NCBI RefSeq assembly: GCF_003325355.1
Contig: NZ_CP030851.1
Location: 1 to 64,000 of the forward strand
Length of the DNA stretch: 64,000 bases
Direction of reading: 5' to 3'
Origin: Runella rosea
Lineage (GTDB): Bacteria > Bacteroidota > Bacteroidia > Cytophagales > Spirosomataceae
The notes beneath the pieces are model-generated. The model ran no database searches. It was given only the letters and a program-made list of their open reading frames with translations, and was not told where the DNA came from. The translations under genes and the position numbers were made by a program. This document shows, one piece after another, positions 2,237 to 50,831 of the stretch; positions within the stretch are counted from its first letter, which is position 1; every line of letters begins with the position of its first letter.

Positions 2237-3604
2237 ATGAACCCTATTGATTTCGAGAAAACACAGATATTTGCCAATAAAGCAAAAGCTGCAGCAACGC
2301 CTCCGTCACCTCCGCTGGTACCCCAAATGCCCTCCGTACCGCAGGTAGCAGCCGCTAAATCAAAACCAAATGTAAAAAAGCTCACTAAAGAAGAAAAAAT
2401 TCTTTTGGCTACTGGAGGTGTTTTGTCAATAGGGCTGGGTGCTATTGTATTTGCAAGCTTCTCGGACTCCGTCGTTGCTGTTCCTGTAGTTGCAACCACC
2501 ACCACTTTGCCAGATACGGCACCAGTGATAGAAACGGAACCGACAAAAACACCAGATAAGCCGATAACGACTCCTGCGCCTCATCATACTGTTCCTACTC
2601 ACCATACGGCCCATTCAAACAGTACTGCTAACGGCACAGCACATTCACTGATTGATATTCCCGAAGAACCGCAGGTTTCGGATAAAGTTTCGGACGAAAT
2701 GTCTTTTGACGAAGCGTTTAAGGCCGCGAGGAATGACGTAGGTCCAGGAGGGCTTTTTGTCTGGAATGAAACGTATTATGGCACTTTCAGCGAAAGTGAA
2801 TGGGAGAGTCTCCCAGAAGCTAAAAAAGAACAGTGGATTACAGCAGTTGAACCCGTAATTGACCCGATAGTTCCAGTGGAAGATCCTATTGCCAAAGATG
2901 AACATGTAGTAATAGCCGACAGAGGAGAGATTACTTGGACGGGTATTGATAAAAACGGAGACGGATTTGCTGAAGTGTTGACTGCCCGTGTGCAGGGACA
3001 ACCTCCCATAGTGATGATGGATGCTGACAATGACGGTATGCTCGACACGCGCTATTTTTTGGATACAACAACAGGGCAAGTTGCCTCGGCGCCTATGGAG
3101 CAAACTGTGATGGAAATGAGCGATGTCAATGACATTCCTCAAATAGAAGCAGGAAGCTCTTTTCATAACGCACATTATGAAAACACCCGCGGGAACGAAG
3201 ATATTGCAGTGTCAATTTTTGAAAAAGACGGGATCTACCTTGTTGCGATTGATATGGATGGAGATGCGTTAATGGATATTTTTTCTTTGAACGCGGATGG
3301 TGAACAACCTTTTGTAGCAATGGATATGGATAATGACGGGCAGGTAGAAACGGGCTATGTATATAGTTCAGAGCATAACATGGTAGTATCGAGTGAAAAC
3401 GAGCCGATGGAGCCTTTTGCCATACCTCCACAAGAGCTTTTTGGAGAAGAAACATACACCGCAGATGCTGATATTGACATGGATGATGATACCAATGATG
3501 ATGACGATTCGGCAGACCAATATGCCCAATCTGACACACACGGTAATACGGAGGAAAATTATTTCAACAACCAGTCGGATGCAGCTGACGATTTTGTGGC
3601 TTAA
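2237..3604 (+). CDS. Single-pass membrane protein with Asp-rich calcium-loop-like repeats
   Basis: No named family recognised. From the ATG at 2237 it gives 455 residues; an upstream in-frame start at 2153 would overlap the previous gene and is rejected. It has a Pro/Ala-rich cytoplasmic stretch, one transmembrane segment near residues 80-105, a Thr/Pro/His-rich linker, then repeats resembling EF-hand or dockerin loops (DKNGDGFAEV, DADNDGML, DMDGDALMDI, DMDNDGQVET). The tail is very acidic (DMDDDTNDDDDSAD). The paired DxDxDG loops suggest calcium binding outside the inner membrane. It sits between two FHA-domain genes, 16 bp before the next start, so it is probably part of that operon. Confidence 0.7.
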   Translation: MNPIDFEKTQIFANKAKAAATPPSPPLVPQMPSVPQVAAAKSKPNVKKLTKEEKILLATGGVLSIGLGAIVFASFSDSVVAVPVVATTTTLPDTAPVIETEPTKTPDKPITTPAPHHTVPTHHTAHSNSTANGTAHSLIDIPEEPQVSDKVSDEMSFDEAFKAARNDVGPGGLFVWNETYYGTFSESEWESLPEAKKEQWITAVEPVIDPIVPVEDPIAKDEHVVIADRGEITWTGIDKNGDGFAEVLTARVQGQPPIVMMDADNDGMLDTRYFLDTTTGQVASAPMEQTVMEMSDVNDIPQIEAGSSFHNAHYENTRGNEDIAVSIFEKDGIYLVAIDMDGDALMDIFSLNADGEQPFVAMDMDNDGQVETGYVYSSEHNMVVSSENEPMEPFAIPPQELFGEETYTADADIDMDDDTNDDDDSADQYAQSDTHGNTEENYFNNQSDAADDFVA

Positions 3605-33097: not shown

Positions 33098-33943
33098 TTA
33101 ATTAAACCCTGTTTTTGCCATAAGGTCGGCCATAATTTTTAATGCTTCAGTAGTAGAAAACGTCCCTTGGTCAAGTTTACTTTGAATATCATTGACTATA
33201 TAGCTGCCTTTTAAATTTATTATATGTCCCGAAACAATGCTGATGGCATTGATTGTCGAGTCTTGCCCGGTTGTAAGTATATCAAGCCACTGCGTCAGCG
33301 TTACGTAATTGTTACTATCAAAGAATGGATCAAGAACAAACATTTTTTCTCGAATACCATTTCTGACCGTAATCATTACCCCAACATGATTCTGAAATCC
33401 TTTTGTATCTTGCACTAAGCTTCTGGTCTTTAAATGCTGTCCTATTACAAATATTTTTTTACAATTAATGTTATTTTTTTTTAAAGATTTTTGAATTTCA
33501 TCCGCTCTTAGTGTACAGTCACCTTTGTCAGTCTCGGGCTTATCAAGGAATGTAATCTTAGTGCCATTTCGTCTCTTCACCGACGTTTTTCCTAAATTTG
33601 TAAACAGTAACTTATAAAGTTTTATCACCTCTTTAAGCTGGCTTTTCTCTAAAACACTTATTGTTGGGGGTTTTTCATCTTCAAACGTCATAGATGGATT
33701 TGGGGCGCTTTTCGTGATTTTCACTACTTCCGTTTCTTTAAATTCAACTTTGAAGCGATTTTTAAATTGATTTCCCTCTTGTTCAAGTGGTACATCCAGT
33801 TCTTCTAATATTTTAAGATTGTCATGTTCAACATAAAATAAATTTGAATTTTCGCTAAAAATAAGCTTTATATTCCCTGAATCCTTATCTTTAAACTTAA
33901 AAATAAGAGATAGTTCTTTGGTGGTTACATCACGTGTTGTCAT
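33098..33943 (-). CDS. Protein-glutamine-deamidase-like protein
   Basis: The C-terminal half fits a papain-like protein glutaminase domain: Cys in KGDCTLRADEI, His in FQNHVGVMI and Asp in MFVLDPFF, in the right order for a Cys-His-Asp triad. The N-terminal ~120 residues are beta-rich and unassigned. The ATG at 33941-33943 is preferred over a GTG at 33994, which would read further into the divergent kinase gene. It heads the three-gene set with the APH-fold kinase and HopA1-domain protein. Family members deamidate glutamine side chains; in this operon it may act on a peptide or on a host or competitor protein (inference). Confidence 0.65.
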   Translation of the reverse strand: MTTRDVTTKELSLIFKFKDKDSGNIKLIFSENSNLFYVEHDNLKILEELDVPLEQEGNQFKNRFKVEFKETEVVKITKSAPNPSMTFEDEKPPTISVLEKSQLKEVIKLYKLLFTNLGKTSVKRRNGTKITFLDKPETDKGDCTLRADEIQKSLKKNNINCKKIFVIGQHLKTRSLVQDTKGFQNHVGVMITVRNGIREKMFVLDPFFDSNNYVTLTQWLDILTTGQDSTINAISIVSGHIINLKGSYIVNDIQSKLDQGTFSTTEALKIMADLMAKTGFN

Positions 33944-33950
33944 TCGTTTT

Positions 33951-35867
33951 ATGCGTTTATCTAAATGGATATATAGTTGTTTCGGTTTGAGCACTGTAGG
34001 AATCGTGGTACTGACTACATTTCTTTTCTTTCATAAAGGACTGGCGCAGAGAAAAAGCCTTACTGACTTGAAATCAGAGCTACAGAAGGCTAAAACCGAC
34101 ACCGCCTTAACAAAAAGCTATTATGGGTTGGCAATGGACTATTATTTTCCTCTGGCTCGTACCGATTCTTTGAAACGTATATCAAAAGAAATCAGCGCGT
34201 TAAATCAAAAAACCAATTGGCCCAATGGCCTTTATTTGGAACATTTGTTGAATGGAGCCATTGCAAAGCTTAATGGCAATTTTTATGAAGCCACCCAACT
34301 GTATTTTCAAGCGCTCCGGATAGCCGAGCAGAGAAAAGATAATGCCCAACTTGCCAGATGTAATTATGAGCTGGGCAACTGTTATTCTCTACTGGAGCAG
34401 CTTCGTGTTTCTACGATTCACTATCAACGTGCTATCAAATTATCAAAACTTGTTAATAATCAAGAGCTGCTTGGTTGGTGTTGTAACAATATAGCACAAG
34501 ATTATGCTGCACAAAAAAAATTCACTCCTGCATTAGAGTATTATAGGGAGGCATTGAGTGTATTCGAAAAAATTGACCTGTTGACTGGTAAAGCTAATGT
34601 TTTGGAAAATTTAGGCACTCTTTTTTACCTGCAATCTAACTATCCTAAGGCTGAAGAATATTTATTAAGATCGAATAAAATGTTCATCCAACTCAATCGC
34701 AGCAAGTACATGATCGCAAACAATTATGTGCGCCTTGCCGAAACAAATCTGGCTCTGAATAAAACAATAAAATCAATACAATATGCCAACAAGTCTATTG
34801 AAATTGCCTCCGAAAATACCTATTCGGAGTTGTTGATGCAAGCCCATGATATACTTTACTTATCCTATAAAAAGCTGAGCCGAAACGCTGAAGCACTTAC
34901 CCATTTTGAGAAAAAGATATATTATCAAAACCTGAAAAATCAAGATGAAAAAACACGTATGATTAATGCTTTAAAGCTTGATTATGAAAATAAAAAACAT
35001 CTGGAAATCAATCAATTGCAAAAAAAAGAACTTACCCTTGAAAAGAAAGTAAATTTTATTTTGAAGGCAGGAGTAATAACTTTTATCATATTTGTTTTGG
35101 CACTGCTTATCGTAATCAATAAAATTAAGAAACAAAACAGGCTTATTGTTTTCCAACGGGATGAAATCAAAGATCTGAATGTTTCCTTGGAAAAAAAGGT
35201 ATTGGAACGTACTCATGAACTTTCAATAGCTAATCAGGAACTGATTAAGAAAAATGCGGAGATTGAAGATGCAATCTTCAACGGACAAAAAATTGAGCGT
35301 AAGCGATTTGCATCGGAACTCCATGACAATTTGGGCGCTACACTAACCAGCGTAAAGTGGCGTTTGGAGGCTATCAACAAACATAATCTTCCGCCGAAAG
35401 AGCAGAGAAACTATGAAAGTATCGTGGAATCTCTCAAAAATGTGTACTCTGACGTTAGGTTTATTTCCCACAATCTACTGCCTACTGAGCTGGAACGGGA
35501 GGGTTTGATAGGTGCTCTTTCCAAACTTGTCAGCGATATTAATAATAGCGGAAAAATATTGATTCACATCCAAAACGACGGGATAGAATTGGATAAAAAA
35601 GTGGCGTTTGAGGTGTACAATATTTTAATGGAAATACTTGGCAATATCCTGAAACATGCGGATGCAACGTTCGTTAAAATCAGTTTAATAAAAATGAACG
35701 AACGATTTAAGGTAACTGTAAAAGATAATGGCCGTGGTTTTGACATTGATCATACGAGCAATGGGGTAGGAATACAGAATATCAAAGAACGAGCCAAATC
35801 AATCAGTGCCGATATCACTTTTATAAGTAAAACAGACAAAGGCACTGAAATTATCATGATTGTTTGA
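33951..35867 (+). CDS. TPR-domain sensor histidine kinase
   Basis: Signal/anchor segment (WIYSCFGLSTVGIVVLTTFLFF), then six or so tetratricopeptide repeats (~residues 40-330), a transmembrane helix (~375-395), a coiled coil and the kinase core: phospho-His in ERKRFASELHDNLGATL and HATPase motifs GNILKHADA and KDNGRGFD. This TPR-HK layout is very common in Bacteroidota. Start at 33951 gives the signal segment. The start codon lies only 7 bp from the divergent gene's start codon, so its promoter must sit inside that gene. The LuxR regulator at 36219-36866 is the likely partner. Confidence 0.9.
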   Translation: MRLSKWIYSCFGLSTVGIVVLTTFLFFHKGLAQRKSLTDLKSELQKAKTDTALTKSYYGLAMDYYFPLARTDSLKRISKEISALNQKTNWPNGLYLEHLLNGAIAKLNGNFYEATQLYFQALRIAEQRKDNAQLARCNYELGNCYSLLEQLRVSTIHYQRAIKLSKLVNNQELLGWCCNNIAQDYAAQKKFTPALEYYREALSVFEKIDLLTGKANVLENLGTLFYLQSNYPKAEEYLLRSNKMFIQLNRSKYMIANNYVRLAETNLALNKTIKSIQYANKSIEIASENTYSELLMQAHDILYLSYKKLSRNAEALTHFEKKIYYQNLKNQDEKTRMINALKLDYENKKHLEINQLQKKELTLEKKVNFILKAGVITFIIFVLALLIVINKIKKQNRLIVFQRDEIKDLNVSLEKKVLERTHELSIANQELIKKNAEIEDAIFNGQKIERKRFASELHDNLGATLTSVKWRLEAINKHNLPPKEQRNYESIVESLKNVYSDVRFISHNLLPTELEREGLIGALSKLVSDINNSGKILIHIQNDGIELDKKVAFEVYNILMEILGNILKHADATFVKISLIKMNERFKVTVKDNGRGFDIDHTSNGVGIQNIKERAKSISADITFISKTDKGTEIIMIV

Positions 35868-38298: not shown

Positions 38299-38901
38299 TT
38301 ATTTGCTTACTTCTCCTTTCTGATACGCACTGATTTTTACGCCCCGCAGTCGCAGATATTTGTACAGCGTCATTTTGGAAATGCCCACCGTTTTGGCAAT
38401 TTCATCCACGCCTAATTTTTCCTCTTTGTAATACATTTCGGCCAACATCGCTTTTTTCTGCGCTTCGGCCGATAGCCCGCTGCGTCGTCCGCCCTTTCGC
38501 CCCCGGGCGCGGGCAGCTTCCAATCCCGCCTTGGTTCGCTCCCGAATCAGGTCTCTTTCAAACTCGGCCAATGATGCAAAAATATTGAGCACCAATCGCC
38601 CCTGAGGCGTAGTGGTATCAATGGAGTCGGTCAGGCTGCGCAGACCCACTCCCCGTTTTTCAAATTCAGCCACCAGCTCCAGCAGATTTTTCAGGGAGCG
38701 ACCCAACCTGTCGAGCTTGTAAATACAAATCACATCTCCTTTCCGAAGTTGACTCATCATCTTTTCCAACTCAGGTCGGTCGGCTTTGATGCCCGAGGCT
38801 TTTTCCTGAAAGATCATTTCGCAGCCCGCTTTGGTGAGGGCATCCCATTGTAATTCTAAATTTTGGTCTTTGGTGGAGACTCTGGCGTAACCGATCAGCA
38901 T
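38299..38901 (-). CDS. Serine recombinase (resolvase/invertase, Pin family)
   Basis: Small serine recombinase. Resolvase domain: IGYARVSTKDQN with the nucleophilic Ser, ASGIKADRPEL, YKLDRLGRSLKNLL and FERDLIRERTKAGLEAA; C-terminal HTH with VDEIAKTVGISKMTLYKYL. The ATG at 38901 (MLIGYARVS) is chosen over 38919. About 200 residues, the usual length for Hin/Pin/Tn3-resolvase proteins. It lies inside a ~2.2-kb inverted-repeat structure, so it may invert or resolve this segment. GC content is higher than in the surrounding repeats. Confidence 0.93.
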   Translation of the reverse strand: MLIGYARVSTKDQNLELQWDALTKAGCEMIFQEKASGIKADRPELEKMMSQLRKGDVICIYKLDRLGRSLKNLLELVAEFEKRGVGLRSLTDSIDTTTPQGRLVLNIFASLAEFERDLIRERTKAGLEAARARGRKGGRRSGLSAEAQKKAMLAEMYYKEEKLGVDEIAKTVGISKMTLYKYLRLRGVKISAYQKGEVSK

Positions 38902-39117
38902 TTGTATAGGTTTAATCAACGATTTTTAAAATTAATTATACTTTGATCACTATACAAGTTTTATTGACGGAAACGGCTGATTATTGACAATTTTCAGGAG
39001 TTGCTGGGTAAAGCAGAAAAAGTTTGAATAAACCCGCGTTTTTATGTACTCTAAAAACAGTGTGTGTTGTCCTAAAAAATCCGGCTGGGTCGGAAAGCAC
39101 TCCTGTTTCAGCAGCTA

Positions 39118-39385
39118 CTTTCCAATGTAATGATACTGTAATGAAACGTAATGATACCGCAAGGATACGTAAGTATGAAAACGTGATGGCGACTCCCGAA
39201 AAACAGAACGCAGGGGTTCGAAAAAAAGGTAGGTTGATCCAGGTTACCTATTGGTTACCTGCCATCCGAAACCTAAGGTAACCTATACGTATCATAAGGT
39301 AACCTATAGGTATCATAAGATTTTCCAGAACACTAAAAAGGAAGGTTACCTAACCTGCTCATTTCTTCAGGTAACCTCAGGTTGT
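39118..39385 (-). repeat. Right arm of inverted repeat (truncated by IS3)
   Basis: Mirror image of 37200-37575: GTAATGAAACGTAATG-type words at 39125-39170, then six GGTAACC/GGTTACC motifs at 39233-39385. Divergence from the left arm is noticeable (about one mismatch per 8-10 bases by eye). The match stops at CAGGTTG, where the IS3 left end begins; the outermost ~110 bp present in the left arm are missing here and do not resume beyond the IS, so sequence was lost. Confidence 0.75.
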
Positions 39386-39532
39386 GCTGACCGATAAAAA
39401 CTGGACAAAAAACCGTCCCTTATTTTAGAGAATGGGAACTCGGTTAATGGGATTGTTTTTCATGTCGATTCCTTTTTGAAGTAGGAACTCGGCAGGACTC
39501 AGAAAATTGATTCCGCTATGAATTCTTTCAAA

Positions 39533-39548
39533 TCGGAGCGCCGAAGCG
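39533..39548 (+). other. 16-bp GC-rich insertion A
   Basis: TCGGAGCGCCGAAGCG. Leaving it out joins DFYN and FERIHSGIN of the transposase. It differs from insertion D (inverted) at two positions. Confidence 0.85.
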
Positions 39549-39746
39549 ATTATAGAAATCACGGAATTGATTCATTATTTCTTTTGCATTGCTTATATTA
39601 CTAAACTCAAACTTCTGACAGACAGCGCTTTCCATAATGGAATGATACGATTCAATATGGCTGTTCTGCTGAGGTGTGGCAGGTTTTGTAAATTCCTGAA
39701 CAACCTGTTTGTCTTTGAAATACTTTTGGACCATTTCCGCAATGAA

Positions 39747-39762
39747 GCGGTCCGCCGCCGCG
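39747..39762 (+). other. 16-bp GC-rich insertion B
   Basis: GCGGTCCGCCGCCGCG, identical to insertion C. It interrupts the codons for the DNG-A-H-F block that holds the second catalytic Asp. The next two bases (GT) are also shared with C. Confidence 0.88.
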
Positions 39763-39960
39763 GTGTGCCCCGTTATCACATCGTACATACATTTTTTCAG
39801 GAATTATCATGTGTACAAATATTCTTTCGAATAGGTCAATAACATCTTGATATTTAATGGAATAGCTAATGTGATGGCTGATATTCCAACGTGAATAAAC
39901 ATCTAGAACGGTCAAAACCTGCATATTTCTGTTTTGTCCTGCAACCCATACAAATTTAAT

Positions 39961-39976
39961 GCGGTCCGCCGCCGCG
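39961..39976 (+). other. 16-bp GC-rich insertion C
   Basis: GCGGTCCGCCGCCGCG, identical to insertion B 214 bp away. It falls directly after the first catalytic Asp codon (LEFD | IKFVW). Confidence 0.88.
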
Positions 39977-40030
39977 GTCAAATTCAAGGTAGCAGAAGGC
40001 GGCTTCCACCTGTGGTAACAAATCTTTGAC

Positions 40031-40046
40031 CGCATCGGCGGTCCGA
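40031..40046 (-). other. 16-bp GC-rich insertion D (inverted orientation)
   Basis: Minus-strand reading TCGGACCGCCGATGCG; 12 of 16 positions equal B/C and 14 of 16 equal A. It separates RNW from VKDLLPQ in the transposase. Confidence 0.85.
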
Positions 40047-40402
40047 CCAGTTGCGTTTAGACTTTTTCGAGGTGTTAACATATTGACTCCTGAGTAATTG
40101 ATGGCTTTTCATGAGCCTATAAACCAAATGTTTACTGATTTTCAACTGCTTCTTTCTTCGCAAGTAGATGTAGGTTTTGTAATAACCGTAATCAACAAAT
40201 GGGTGATCGAAAAGCTGATGAATATATTCAATAATAATCTCATTAGCAACAATTTCCCCATTCTTATCAACTGCTTTTGCATAAGGCTTACAACCCTGTT
40301 TTCCTTCAGAAGGCCGGTAGTAATAACTGCTTCGAGCAATATAGCATAGGGCCAACACTTTATTCTTAGGAAAGTGAGTTTCAATGAATTCCTGTGCTAC
40401 TA

Positions 40403-40708
40403 TCAACCGCTCTTGTTGAGTGGGGAAGTTTTTTTTAACAGGGCATCTTTTATACGAATTTCAAGTTCTTTCTCGGCTACCAGTTCTTTAAGTGCTTGAT
40501 TCTCCCGTAAAAGACGATGATACTCTTTGCTTGAAATAGAGGTCTCAACCTCTTTTACTGAGGCTGAAGAGGAGTCACAGGCCCATCGGTAAATCATAGA
40601 GGTCGAAACCTCAAATTGACGGGAAGCAGAGGTGACTCCGTGTTCTTGATAATACTGGAGGATGGCTTTTTTGTCGCTTTCGCTCCAATGTCTGCGGTGT
40701 TTGCTCAT
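40403..40708 (-). CDS. IS3-family transposase OrfA
   Basis: 101 residues: an HTH (SESDKKAILQYYQEHGVTSA, FEVSTSMIYRW) followed by a leucine zipper-like helix (YHRLLRENQALKELVAEKE). It ends just after a run of eight As in coding sense, a slippery site whose -1 frame leads into OrfB (KKNFPTQQERLIVAQEF). Intact and free of 16-bp insertions. Confidence 0.88.
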   Translation of the reverse strand: MSKHRRHWSESDKKAILQYYQEHGVTSASRQFEVSTSMIYRWACDSSSASVKEVETSISSKEYHRLLRENQALKELVAEKELEIRIKDALLKKTSPLNKSG

Positions 40709-40763
40709 TGGACTACAAGTTAAGAGATTCCCTTAGCTTTGTGTCCAAACTTTTATCGGGCTG

Positions 40764-40919
40764 GAAAGAAATCACGGCTTTTTAAGTCCTTTGTATCGCC
40801 AACTTTTCGGGCGAATGTGTCTGTACAATTTTCGGTAGCCTTAGCGTGGCAACTACAACTATGCCCCTCTGAAAGAACAGTAAAATTCATACTTATGTCC
40901 AGCGTTTGTTTATAAAAGT
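40764..40919. other. Short intergenic stretch
   Basis: About 155 bp between the IS3 right end and the first GC-rich island. No gene, repeat or continuation of the inverted-repeat arm recognised. Confidence 0.5.
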
Positions 40920-40954
40920 AAAAAGGTTGCCGTTCTACGCAACCTTGTAGAGAA

Positions 40955-41165
40955 TCTATGAAAAACTAAACATTCAAGTCGTTTCCCTTGTCGCCAAGAA
41001 CCTGCCCTGCAAGCCAAAACCTGCCTAACCGGGGCGTTCAAGCTGTCAACCGAAACCCGCCGAACGAGCAAAAAGCCTGACCTCTGCGGCCTGCAATCTG
41101 TCGCTGGGACGCTGCCCCGCAAGCACTTTATTGGCAAACACCCAACGACCCCATGTGAAATTTGA
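40955..41165. repeat. GC-rich island 1 with attC-like half-site
   Basis: Degenerate ~57-bp units (CTTGTCGCCAAGAACC..., GGGGCGTTCAAGCTGTC..., GCGGCCTGCAATCTGTCGC...) followed by ACCCAAC (41140-41146) and CCATGTG (41151-41157), the left half of the 61-bp palindrome found complete in islands 2 and 3. The right half is missing. GC content is far above that of the adjacent modules. No convincing gene. Confidence 0.7.
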
Positions 41166-41396
41166 GTGATTACCGGGCGACGTTCGCCAAGCAAAAATGT
41201 CGAAGTATCGCTCAGGTTAGAAAGATTTAAAGCTGTTATATTGGTACTTACCGTGTTGCAAACACTCTATTTGTTTTTAGTTCGGGGTTGTCTTTCAGAA
41301 CATCCCGAACAACGGGGGCTTATCAACCAGAGCTTTATCATGCCGAGCGGAAAGATAATAACAATCAAATTACTAATTTCTGAATCTTTAAAGGCC
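41166..41396. other. Spacer right of island 1
   Basis: About 230 bp with no gene recognised; leads to the 3' end of the TPR-like gene. A short plus-strand frame exists but has no family resemblance. Confidence 0.45.
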
Positions 41397-48095: not shown

Positions 48096-50831
48096 TTATT
48101 TTCTGTCCTTATTCATCGCATCTTTAAGTTTTTCGCCTAAGTCCGAAACTTGTCCAGCAGATGTATGATTTTGATTTACACTGGGACGGTACGAATTGTT
48201 TGTTCGTTTATGTAAAATATTTTTAAGCCAATCCTGCTTGAACTTGAATTGTTGGTGGAAATTTTTGGGCGCACAGTATAATACAAATTCGCATACTTTT
48301 AGGGCTAATTCAATTTTGTCTAACCTGATTAATACCTCCAGAAAACTGTACAAACCAGCAATAACGTTTTGCCTTGCTCCTGAGGATACTTCGTCGAGCT
48401 TTCTGCTGACAACACTATTGTATAAAAAAATACCTTGCTTATCATGAATATCTTTACAGACTTGCTTTTGTTTGTCTCTAATTTGCCCGAAGTCTGCAAA
48501 CGATATCTCGTTGTATTACTTTTTTCTTTTAAATCTTGCCAATCAGCTATGATCAAGATTGATCTATATTGCAACAACATTCCTGCTAATTCCAAGTCTA
48601 AATCTTTCTCCATAGTTGAATCCTGATGTAGCATAAGTAAGTAGACTCTCTATAGCTTTTTCCTTTTGGTCTCTTGTACCGTTAGCCCAATAGTAGGTAG
48701 CCCACATTTTTTGTAAATGTTGCATAATATATCTTTTCGTTAGAGCCTTTTATACTATTTTTATTAAAGTGGTAACTGTACTCGTCTAAATACCTGAGTG
48801 CTAATTCTTTTTTACCTCGATCAACTAAATACGCAGCTAAATTTAGTATAGCTGGTAGTTTTACCTCTAAGGGGCTTGTAGTTCTATTGATAATCTGCTT
48901 ATAACTATCTATAACTTCAATCTCATTTTTTGCCAAGCGGTTAGCATTTGCTGTAAGCAATAATGAATGTTCAACATCTAATGTCTTATCTCTATTTACT
49001 TGATTTCTCCTACTTACACAATTGCCTTTATAGTGCTTGGCCTCTTTTCAAAATAATCACTCATTATTTGAAATATCTCTTTTGAGTATATTTCAAAAAA
49101 CTTATGTTCTTCATCAATTTTTTATAATTTTAATTTAACTAATTCATTGACGGCAGAATTGAAAATATCAGGTTCATGCTCAAGATTAAGAATATACTGC
49201 GCTTTTTCAATAACGTTACTTAAATCGTCCAGCAAACTTAATACCACAAAAAGATCTTTCGCCTTTGGAGATAGGTATTCATAAATACGACCAAATAAAA
49301 AACTGATTGCTGTGTCACCTTCCTTGATTTTATAATTAATTGCATCTGCAAAACCTTTCTGTCCCAGAATAAAAGCAAATTGAAAAATAAACAAGGGTCT
49401 GCCACTTGTTATCTCAAATACCATATGACTTTTTTCAGTAGTCTCCAACTGCTGTTTTATGGTAATTTCATTACCGAGTTCCTCATTTTTAATGACTTCC
49501 AGTAGGAACCTCGTAGTTTCATTTTCAGTAAGTTCATTGGTCTGAAACTCTTGGCCAATGTTAATATTAGCAGCTCTCGTTGTGATAATTACTTTATGAT
49601 TATTTGTATTGAGTTCGGAGATAAATAAATCTATCTTGTCTTTCTCTTCTTTAGGAAAGGTCTCGAAATCATCAATCACTAAAAGTAGTTTTTTGCCTTT
49701 AATATCAACAATGGCACTTGGGTCGTCATCATCATCGTTATTAAATAAAACTTTATTAATACCTTTGATTAACTCTGGTAGTGTTGCAATTTTATCACTT
49801 ATTTCTTCAATGTTACCCGTATAGTAATCGTACTTTCTATCTTTTGCCGACAGAAATACAATGTAGTCAAAAAACTTACGCTCATCATTCGCTAAGTCTT
49901 CGCATAGACTTTGAATCGTAGCGGTTTTACCGACACCACCATGCCCCCACACTGTGGCGCAAACCGAAGATTTATTTTTAAGAAGAAAATCTTTGAGCCT
50001 CCTCTTAATACCTATGTCTATATATTTCTTGTAGTTATTCTCATAGACATTGCGAATAGTACCGTTATGACTTTTAATTTTTATGCCGTCATTTGTTATA
50101 TCTAATTCGCAAAACTCTTCCCATTCCTTATATAGTATTCCTGTTTCAAGTAGTCTATTATACTTTACATTACCTGTTAGTTTTTCGTCAATGCTATTGA
50201 AAAAATATATTTCTCGGCCAAAGGCTGACATTTCTACGAAAGGAGATAATCTAAAATATTGATTTAAGCCATAACTTCCATATAAACTATTAGTTTTGAA
50301 TTCATGAATGTTTTTGGGGCAACTCCAAGGACTGTAATTAGTGCCATCACTTTTGTATGAAATTCCTTTGTAAATATTGGAATCAAAGGAAGTTACAAAT
50401 ATTAGATCTACATTTTCAATAAGTATAGGTAAGTTAGAGTATGAAATAGAATCGTACAATTCCTGAAGTGCTGTGAGTACTTTCTCTGGAGCATCTTCAT
50501 ATACAAAACCATGCCCCAATAACTCATTCCTAACTGACGGATACTTCTCAAAAGCTTGATTTAATTTGCCACTCTTAAAGATTTCTTTGTCTATATCAAG
50601 TTTTCGACAGATTGATACAATACTACCTATTGTAGGTTTGATAATGTTTTGAAATACATATTCTTTGTCTTCATAATCAAGCTTATCAATATTTTTATTC
50701 CATAAATATCCCACCAAATAAACCAAAATATATTCAAATCGAGCTTGATAGTGAATCTTCAATGCTGATTTCTCACCCATAGATTGAAGAAATTCTATCC
50801 GTTGTTGTACTTGCTTTCTGATGTAATCCAT
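48096..50831 (-). CDS. STAND NTPase (NB-ARC-like) with C-terminal TPRs (frameshifted)
   Basis: Signal-transducing ATPase with a ~280-residue N-terminal region of unknown fold, an NB-ARC-like core (Walker A VWGHGGVGKTA; Walker B KLLLVIDDFE; sensor KVIITTRAA) and a winged-helix part. The frame stops at 49122 (TAA), but the same frame continues KIDEEHKFFEIYSKEIFQIM and, after one-base shifts near 49010, 48680 and 48350, TPR-like helices (LDVEHSLLLTANAN, KKELALRYLDEY, LIRLDKIELALKVCEF) to 48096, giving ~911 residues. Bacterial STAND proteins of this layout act as antiphage sensors. Located between islands 3 and 4. Confidence 0.72.

Follow-up and report, generated by a model that had tools for sequence, protein, structure and literature searches.

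What are four 16-base GC-rich inserts doing inside a single transposase gene, and how could they have got there? The question was raised by an IS3-type insertion sequence (IS) in the window, the whole 64,000-nt stretch of DNA that was analyzed, which corresponds to bases 1-64000 of the 75,895-bp contig C2 of a Runella genome of 7.16 Mb (7 contigs). A preliminary description of this DNA had proposed several meanings for the inserts, among them a very small mobile sequence, a sequence that is excised or bypassed in expression, and a systematic assembly artefact. These were weighed by comparison with related genomes.

A transposase gene with four inserts

The features of the locus are as follows.

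39383..40764, minus strand: IS3-type insertion sequence, host of the elements (right end approximate)
40403..40708, minus strand: orfA, HTH_Tnp_1 (Pfam E 2e-4, below cut-off)
39425..40406, minus strand: orfB, with Pfam pieces HTH_21, rve (below cut-off) and rve_3, broken by four elements
39533..39549, plus strand: micro-element 1 (16-mer 39533-39548 plus base 17), at the YN/FERIH codons near the orfB end, common to the copy in genome G031
39747..39763, plus strand: micro-element 2, five codons past the D of DNG, base 17 unlike the empty site
39961..39977, plus strand: micro-element 3, identical to element 2, directly past the EFD codons
40030..40046, minus strand: micro-element 4 (16-mer 40031-40046), inverted, at RNW/VKD, its 16-mer also in the G128 copy from another genus

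The sequence was checked and the four 16-mers were found where they had been described, those at 39747 and 39961 being identical and that at 40031-40046 inverted. Removal of exactly these 64 bases restored a single frame, a 323-codon stop-to-stop orfB with all four inserts between codons. The remaining orfB was, as had been claimed, free of defects, with no stop or other indel over the 292 codons that were aligned to a relative lacking interruptions. The EFD of orfB is presumably the first DDE motif, and the codon boundary that holds element 2 was also hit in a clearly different IS3 protein of R. slithyformis (L201).

The window contained 8 matches to the 16-mer pattern at up to three mismatches (shuffle mean 2.25; 0 of 100 shuffles reached 8), and the four exact matches fell within 514 bp. 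No second copy of the host IS was found by DNA search of the window genome, and window positions 38900-41200 gave no Rfam match at E up to 1. Elsewhere in the window, positions 33098-33994 encode a protein with a Gln_deamidase_2 (glutaminase) match, and 49122-50831 an NB-ARC/NACHT-like STAND protein.

One short family in many genomes

Exact matches to BCGGNNCGCCGVNGCG were counted in other genomes, with the reversed pattern as control. Counts were 19 in G000, 40 in G095 and 132 in G111 (taken as a Runella MAG), vs. control counts of 3, 0 and 2, and matches exceeded the control in 13 of 13 Runella genomes. In 395 genomes sampled from the phylum, it was in the same family that counts were high and controls nearly empty (e.g., G004, 50 vs. 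1; G008, 92 vs. 4); elsewhere counts mostly tracked the control, with some excesses (G476, 17 vs. 1; G527, 14 vs. 2; G347, 40 vs. 11; G163, 35 vs. 12). The 17-nt form of the family, N-CGG-NY-CG-CCG-N-N-GCG-R, was present in 117 of 150 Spirosomataceae genomes. Counts against control were highest in G121 (198 vs. 0), G056 (153 vs. 2) and G111 (127 vs. 1), followed by G054 (117 vs. 2), G131 (109 vs. 0) and G142 (107 vs. 0); G121, G056 and G131 belong to genera other than Runella. None of the 17 genomes tabulated for genus g13 in this 150-genome search had the form. As the search patterns fix 11 bases (with B at position 1, V at 12 and, in some searches, R at 17), decayed or diverged forms of the element were missed.

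Copies exceeded the control in Runella and relatives, in support of a genuine 16-mer family. An assembly or sequencing artefact, or chance decay of the gene, is contradicted by the recurrence of the same family in many separate assemblies, including that of R. slithyformis, by sites shared between species and by covariation within the element, and its probability is practically negligible. Among the literature matches listed, no title pointed to these repeats. Short tandem arrays of the element were observed, with a 16-base period in G000 (L022) and a 32-base period in G032 (L385, G032:C3 about 3257-3337).

Sites for further analysis were taken from the matches listed for G095, G111, G121, G056 and G054, plus the search loci. 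Near-identical flanks were removed before covariation (197 sites reduced to 171), coding-frame and target-bias counts.

What is gained at an insertion

The host IS was found in 26 of the 150 genomes, and the window copy was aligned with copies from seven other places. The closest relative, in G031, has insert 1 and lacks the other three of the window at clean empty sites; a fragment in G129 lacks insert 1 and ends inside insert 2. The copies in G095 (taken as R. slithyformis DSM 19594) and G103 (taken as R. defluvii) have none of the four window inserts, and share the 16-mer CCGGGTCGCCGGAGCG at one other site, the G103 copy having an additional insert in orfA (net 17 nt). The 16-mer of window element 4 lies at a different place of the IS in the G128 copy. 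A protein-query scan for further IS copies gave 6 loci, 3 of them in Runella. The relatives with empty sites bear out that the inserts are extra DNA. Fragments of the host IS that are rearranged or broken at or beside the positions of elements 1 and 2 were seen in L058 (pRUNSL01; about 1280-1660) and L033 (G129), which suggests recombination there.

When the collected loci were compared with one another, empty counterparts were found for 45 of 407 queries, representing 40 distinct insertions. Net gain was 16 nt in 30 of these, 15 in 5, 17 in 3 and another length in 2. At the 30 net-16 sites, base 17 differed from the empty site in 9, vs. 1-6 at each of fourteen neighboring positions. At 7 of these 9 sites the change gave a base 17 that pairs with base 6, which the old base would have done at none of them; of the 21 sites without a change, 19 had a target base able to pair with base 6 from the start. 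From this pairing at changed and unchanged sites, base 17 acts as part of the unit, one target base usually being overlapped or replaced. The proposed 16-base unit therefore needs amendment: the 16-mers are present, but the repeated unit is 17 nt long, and the base 3' of each 16-mer covaries with the sixth base. A target-site duplication of at least 2 bp, the mark of a classical insertion sequence or MITE, was not seen at the 40 insertions, where a 17-nt unit gave a net gain of 15-17 nt in 38.

Target flanks were weakly biased (G/A then A/G before the element, R then T after it). A long target motif was rejected; clear bias was confined to positions -1, 0, 17 and 18, and R at 17 was partly forced by some search patterns. 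A palindromic target was likewise rejected as a general rule, since arms of at least 10 were found at 19 of 296 sites vs. 3 of 751 random positions, a minority that is confounded by intergenic location.

Covariation and folding

Over the 171 non-redundant sites, the strongest covariation was between bases 1 and 12 (TA 65, GC 63, CG 16), then 1 and 5, then 6 and 17 (CG 101, TA 38). Watson-Crick pairs were formed by 1-12 in 146 sites (shuffle maximum 87) and by 6-17 in 142 (maximum 100), these maxima ignoring shared descent among sites; in a set of 313 sites the corresponding counts were 272 and at least 264. Pairs 1-5 (82 of 171, shuffle maximum 52) and 13-17 (75 of 171, maximum 68) were also above shuffles. 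They fall outside the stems proposed below and have no explanation in that model, and may reflect subfamilies.

The layout fits two overlapping 4-base stems, 1-4/9-12 and 6-9/14-17, which could be alternatives or form a tight pseudoknot. The evidence for this is in the covarying outer pairs, 1/12 and 6/17; the search pattern itself dictates the inner pairs, which carry no weight. The reverse complement of the element has the same layout, and the near-equal orientations within genes (11 and 13) fit with this. When five typed 17-mers were folded, four formed one or other stem and that of window elements 2 and 3 folded in another register; none of the five folded clearly better than its shuffles.

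Interrupted genes: frames and targets

A codon-usage frame test (threshold 12) placed coding flanks on one strand at 41 of the 171 sites, and at 222 of 399 random positions from the same loci. The reading frame was continuous only without the 16 nt in 24 of the 41, only with them in 14 and in neither case in 3; the 222 random positions gave 5, 215 and 2, respectively. At threshold 20 the counts were 10, 11 and 1 for sites, and 1, 140 and 3 for the control, so that the excess of frame-breaking sites was smaller at the stricter threshold. Four of the 24 frame-breaking sites (L023, L095, L097 and L162) precede the first ATG of the frame. From these counts against random positions, it follows that coding DNA is avoided, that most copies lie outside genes and that in-gene copies often break the frame. 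A strict codon-phase rule was rejected, the window having 4 of 4 inserts in phase 0 but the 24 frame-breaking sites being split 12:6:6.

Ten interrupted genes were scanned with Pfam; seven matched DDE_3, IS66, IS110, ISL3, DUF772 and two integrase types, and three had no match. Gene families were assigned partly by eye, and on this basis the ORF in L098 resembles a single-stranded-DNA-binding protein, a possible exception to the mobile-gene targets. Mobile genes were hit repeatedly, with 4 inserts in the window IS3 and 2-3 in each of L041, L092, L146, L198, L204 and L262, and in DDE-type genes 11 of 25 inserts were no more than five codons from a residue taken as catalytic (scored by eye after the fact, with known motifs as the guide). 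Repeated hits of this kind, often near such codons, are what would be expected of host-directed inactivation, in which transposase and integrase genes would be the preferred targets of a system that adds the frameshifting 17-mer; most copies, however, lie outside coding DNA, and this explanation is considered quite improbable.

Several other arrangements were observed. The IS3 gene of L047 contains, besides the element, two degenerate inserts that resemble hairpins but differ in sequence, and one of them adds a net 15 nt. Elements are also found in the T-arm region of tRNA-like copies (L135, 1430-1830; L383, 969-1190; L283, about 1490-1545; L417, about 200-240), three of these four loci having the corresponding intact tRNA gene alongside. 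In G121 (L244, L257, L259, L270 and L272), palindromes older than the elements have one in each arm, placed as mirror images, as though one arm had served as template for the other. Element pairs in this genome recur at set spacings, e.g., 61 and 77 bp.

Interrupted genes: selection

Rates of dN/dS were calculated for six of the eight aligned IS copies, the partial G128 and G129 copies being excluded. The G095 and G103 orfB genes, which share one insert, had a dN/dS of 0.056 (58 synonymous and 18 nonsynonymous changes) with no stops or other indels in 292 codons, and near the insert 17 of 52 synonymous vs. 1 of 239 nonsynonymous sites were changed. This insert falls in the codon of a glutamate that we take to be the third DDE residue. 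A short conversion tract is an unlikely source, because differences in the flanks begin only a few bases away on either side. The recombinase pair L092/L204 has a common 16-mer near the 3' end, just before a tyrosine that is presumably the catalytic residue, and gave the same dN/dS of 0.056 (101 synonymous and 33 nonsynonymous changes, dS 0.88, 0 stops). Two gene pairs with a common out-of-frame insert are thus under strong purifying selection, a result hard to reconcile with simple inactivation unless each gene gained its insert separately. Shared inserts could reflect descent under selection or repeated hits at hot spots, and both readings are compatible with the sequences. In G111, one IS is present as L404 and L419, and these two copies have different variants ahead of the same GAT codon, although the left flank of L404 is 19 bases only.

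These pairs bear most directly on the proposal that the element is silent, with interrupted genes still working because the ribosome passes over the 16 nt or the RNA loses them. The element would then be a bacterial counterpart of byp elements or of a minimal intron, 17 nt long with two stems and a strand-symmetric layout, set at conserved catalytic codons of transposases and recombinases; it is rather doubtful that this is what it is. Its being skipped or removed in expression, such that genes with several out-of-frame copies function and spread, is likewise unlikely. Besides the selection on both pairs, the proposal is favored by the window IS, where the compared part of orfB is free of stops and of indels apart from the four inserts, and by the 11 of 25 inserts scored by eye near presumed catalytic residues, a placement like that of inteins and introns. 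It is opposed by the avoidance of coding DNA (41 of 171 sites vs. 222 of 399 random positions) and by the targets, seven of the ten scanned genes being transposases or recombinases (three had no Pfam match, and L098 is a possible exception). Translational bypass (byp) uses matching take-off and landing codons, and no such match was present at the four window sites. Different variants do insert at the same site, and some carriers have other lesions, namely a single-base gap in the G128 copy and a 13-base gap near the start of L092; the gene downstream of the L204 recombinase breaks off, and L047 has its additional degenerate inserts. The window/G031 orfB pair had a raised dN/dS of 0.142 (0.056-0.101 in six other orfB pairs where estimable), which is what a recent loss of selection on one copy or both would give. 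The excision or bypass raised in the preliminary description is accordingly left with the purifying selection in two diverged pairs on its side, and with the missing codon match, the mostly non-coding sites and the damaged carriers against it. Should the interrupted genes prove functional, bacteria would have a new means of expressing genes of this kind.

Enzymes and comparable repeats

REP sequences and REPINs are short palindromes with many copies, some in inverted pairs (PMC3116915), and the Runella element is alike in all three respects. Movement of the element as such a repeat by a RAYT or other Y1 transposase was therefore considered. The 16-17-nt palindrome agrees with it, as do the frequent pairs in G121, where at least 22 opposite-strand pairs within 100 bp were counted by eye among the matches listed (198 elements in all; one pair overlaps). 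However, five examined pairs sit in palindrome arms with outer flanks that are also palindromic, the consensus has no GTAG/CGTC tag, and 20 of the 150 genomes had no Y1_Tnp match, including the element-rich G142 (107 elements), G080 (40, control 6) and G106 (32, control 3). A Y1/RAYT enzyme was rejected as a necessity on the last of these grounds. Compared with REP sequences and REPINs, the Runella element differs in needing no RAYT and in lacking the tetranucleotide tag. The extragenic location implied by the name REP is also departed from, as 24 of 41 coding-flanked sites break a frame, yet 130 of 171 sites are not coding-flanked. Altogether, a REP/REPIN-type origin is very improbable.

Two further candidates were rejected. 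Ku end joining is unsuitable, Ku being found in 0 of 29 genomes tested, and so is reverse transcriptase, as RVT_1 was missing from 10 of these 29, including the window genome, G054, G008 and G006, all with elements. Enzyme presence was scored in today's genomes, which may differ from those at the time of insertion.

Cyanobacteria have small dispersed repeats (SDR; Elhai et al. 2008), which brief mentions in other papers describe as about 20 bp long and possibly mobile. Like SDR, the Runella element is very short and dispersed, and comparison with empty sites shows it to be inserted. It differs in its 17-nt length, as against 21-27 nt for SDR, in its two overlapping stems and in its occurrence in Spirosomataceae rather than cyanobacteria. 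Yeast mitochondrial GC clusters and the byps of Magnusiomyces are likewise short inserts in otherwise intact genes; the Runella element is bacterial and without a landing-codon match.

Discussion

The 16-mers of the window probably belong to a mobile micro-element, non-autonomous and about 17 nt long, that is dispersed in the Spirosomataceae, mostly between genes, a reading drawn from comparative sequence evidence. Of the meanings proposed at the outset, it is the very small mobile sequence that gains support, from the empty sites, from copies at other sites and from dispersal through the family. Entry into the DNA would involve a folded single strand that is either copied or joined at sites with a weak preference for, roughly, GA in front and RT behind. 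The last base of the element would pair with base 6, and the element would overlap or replace one base of the target. An insertion within a gene would shift the frame, and because of this the element may survive mainly between genes and in dispensable mobile genes. The IS3 transposase of the window could be such a dispensable gene, hit four times.

To our knowledge, a 17-nt unit would be among the smallest mobile DNA units described. Its size, its paired last base and the dispensability of the candidate enzymes tried make it a new variety among very small mobile repeats. Genomes that are rich in the element and have no transposase of the type that serves REP sequences indicate that another route exists, and with so uneven a spread in one family, the enzyme should be findable by comparing element-rich with element-free relatives.
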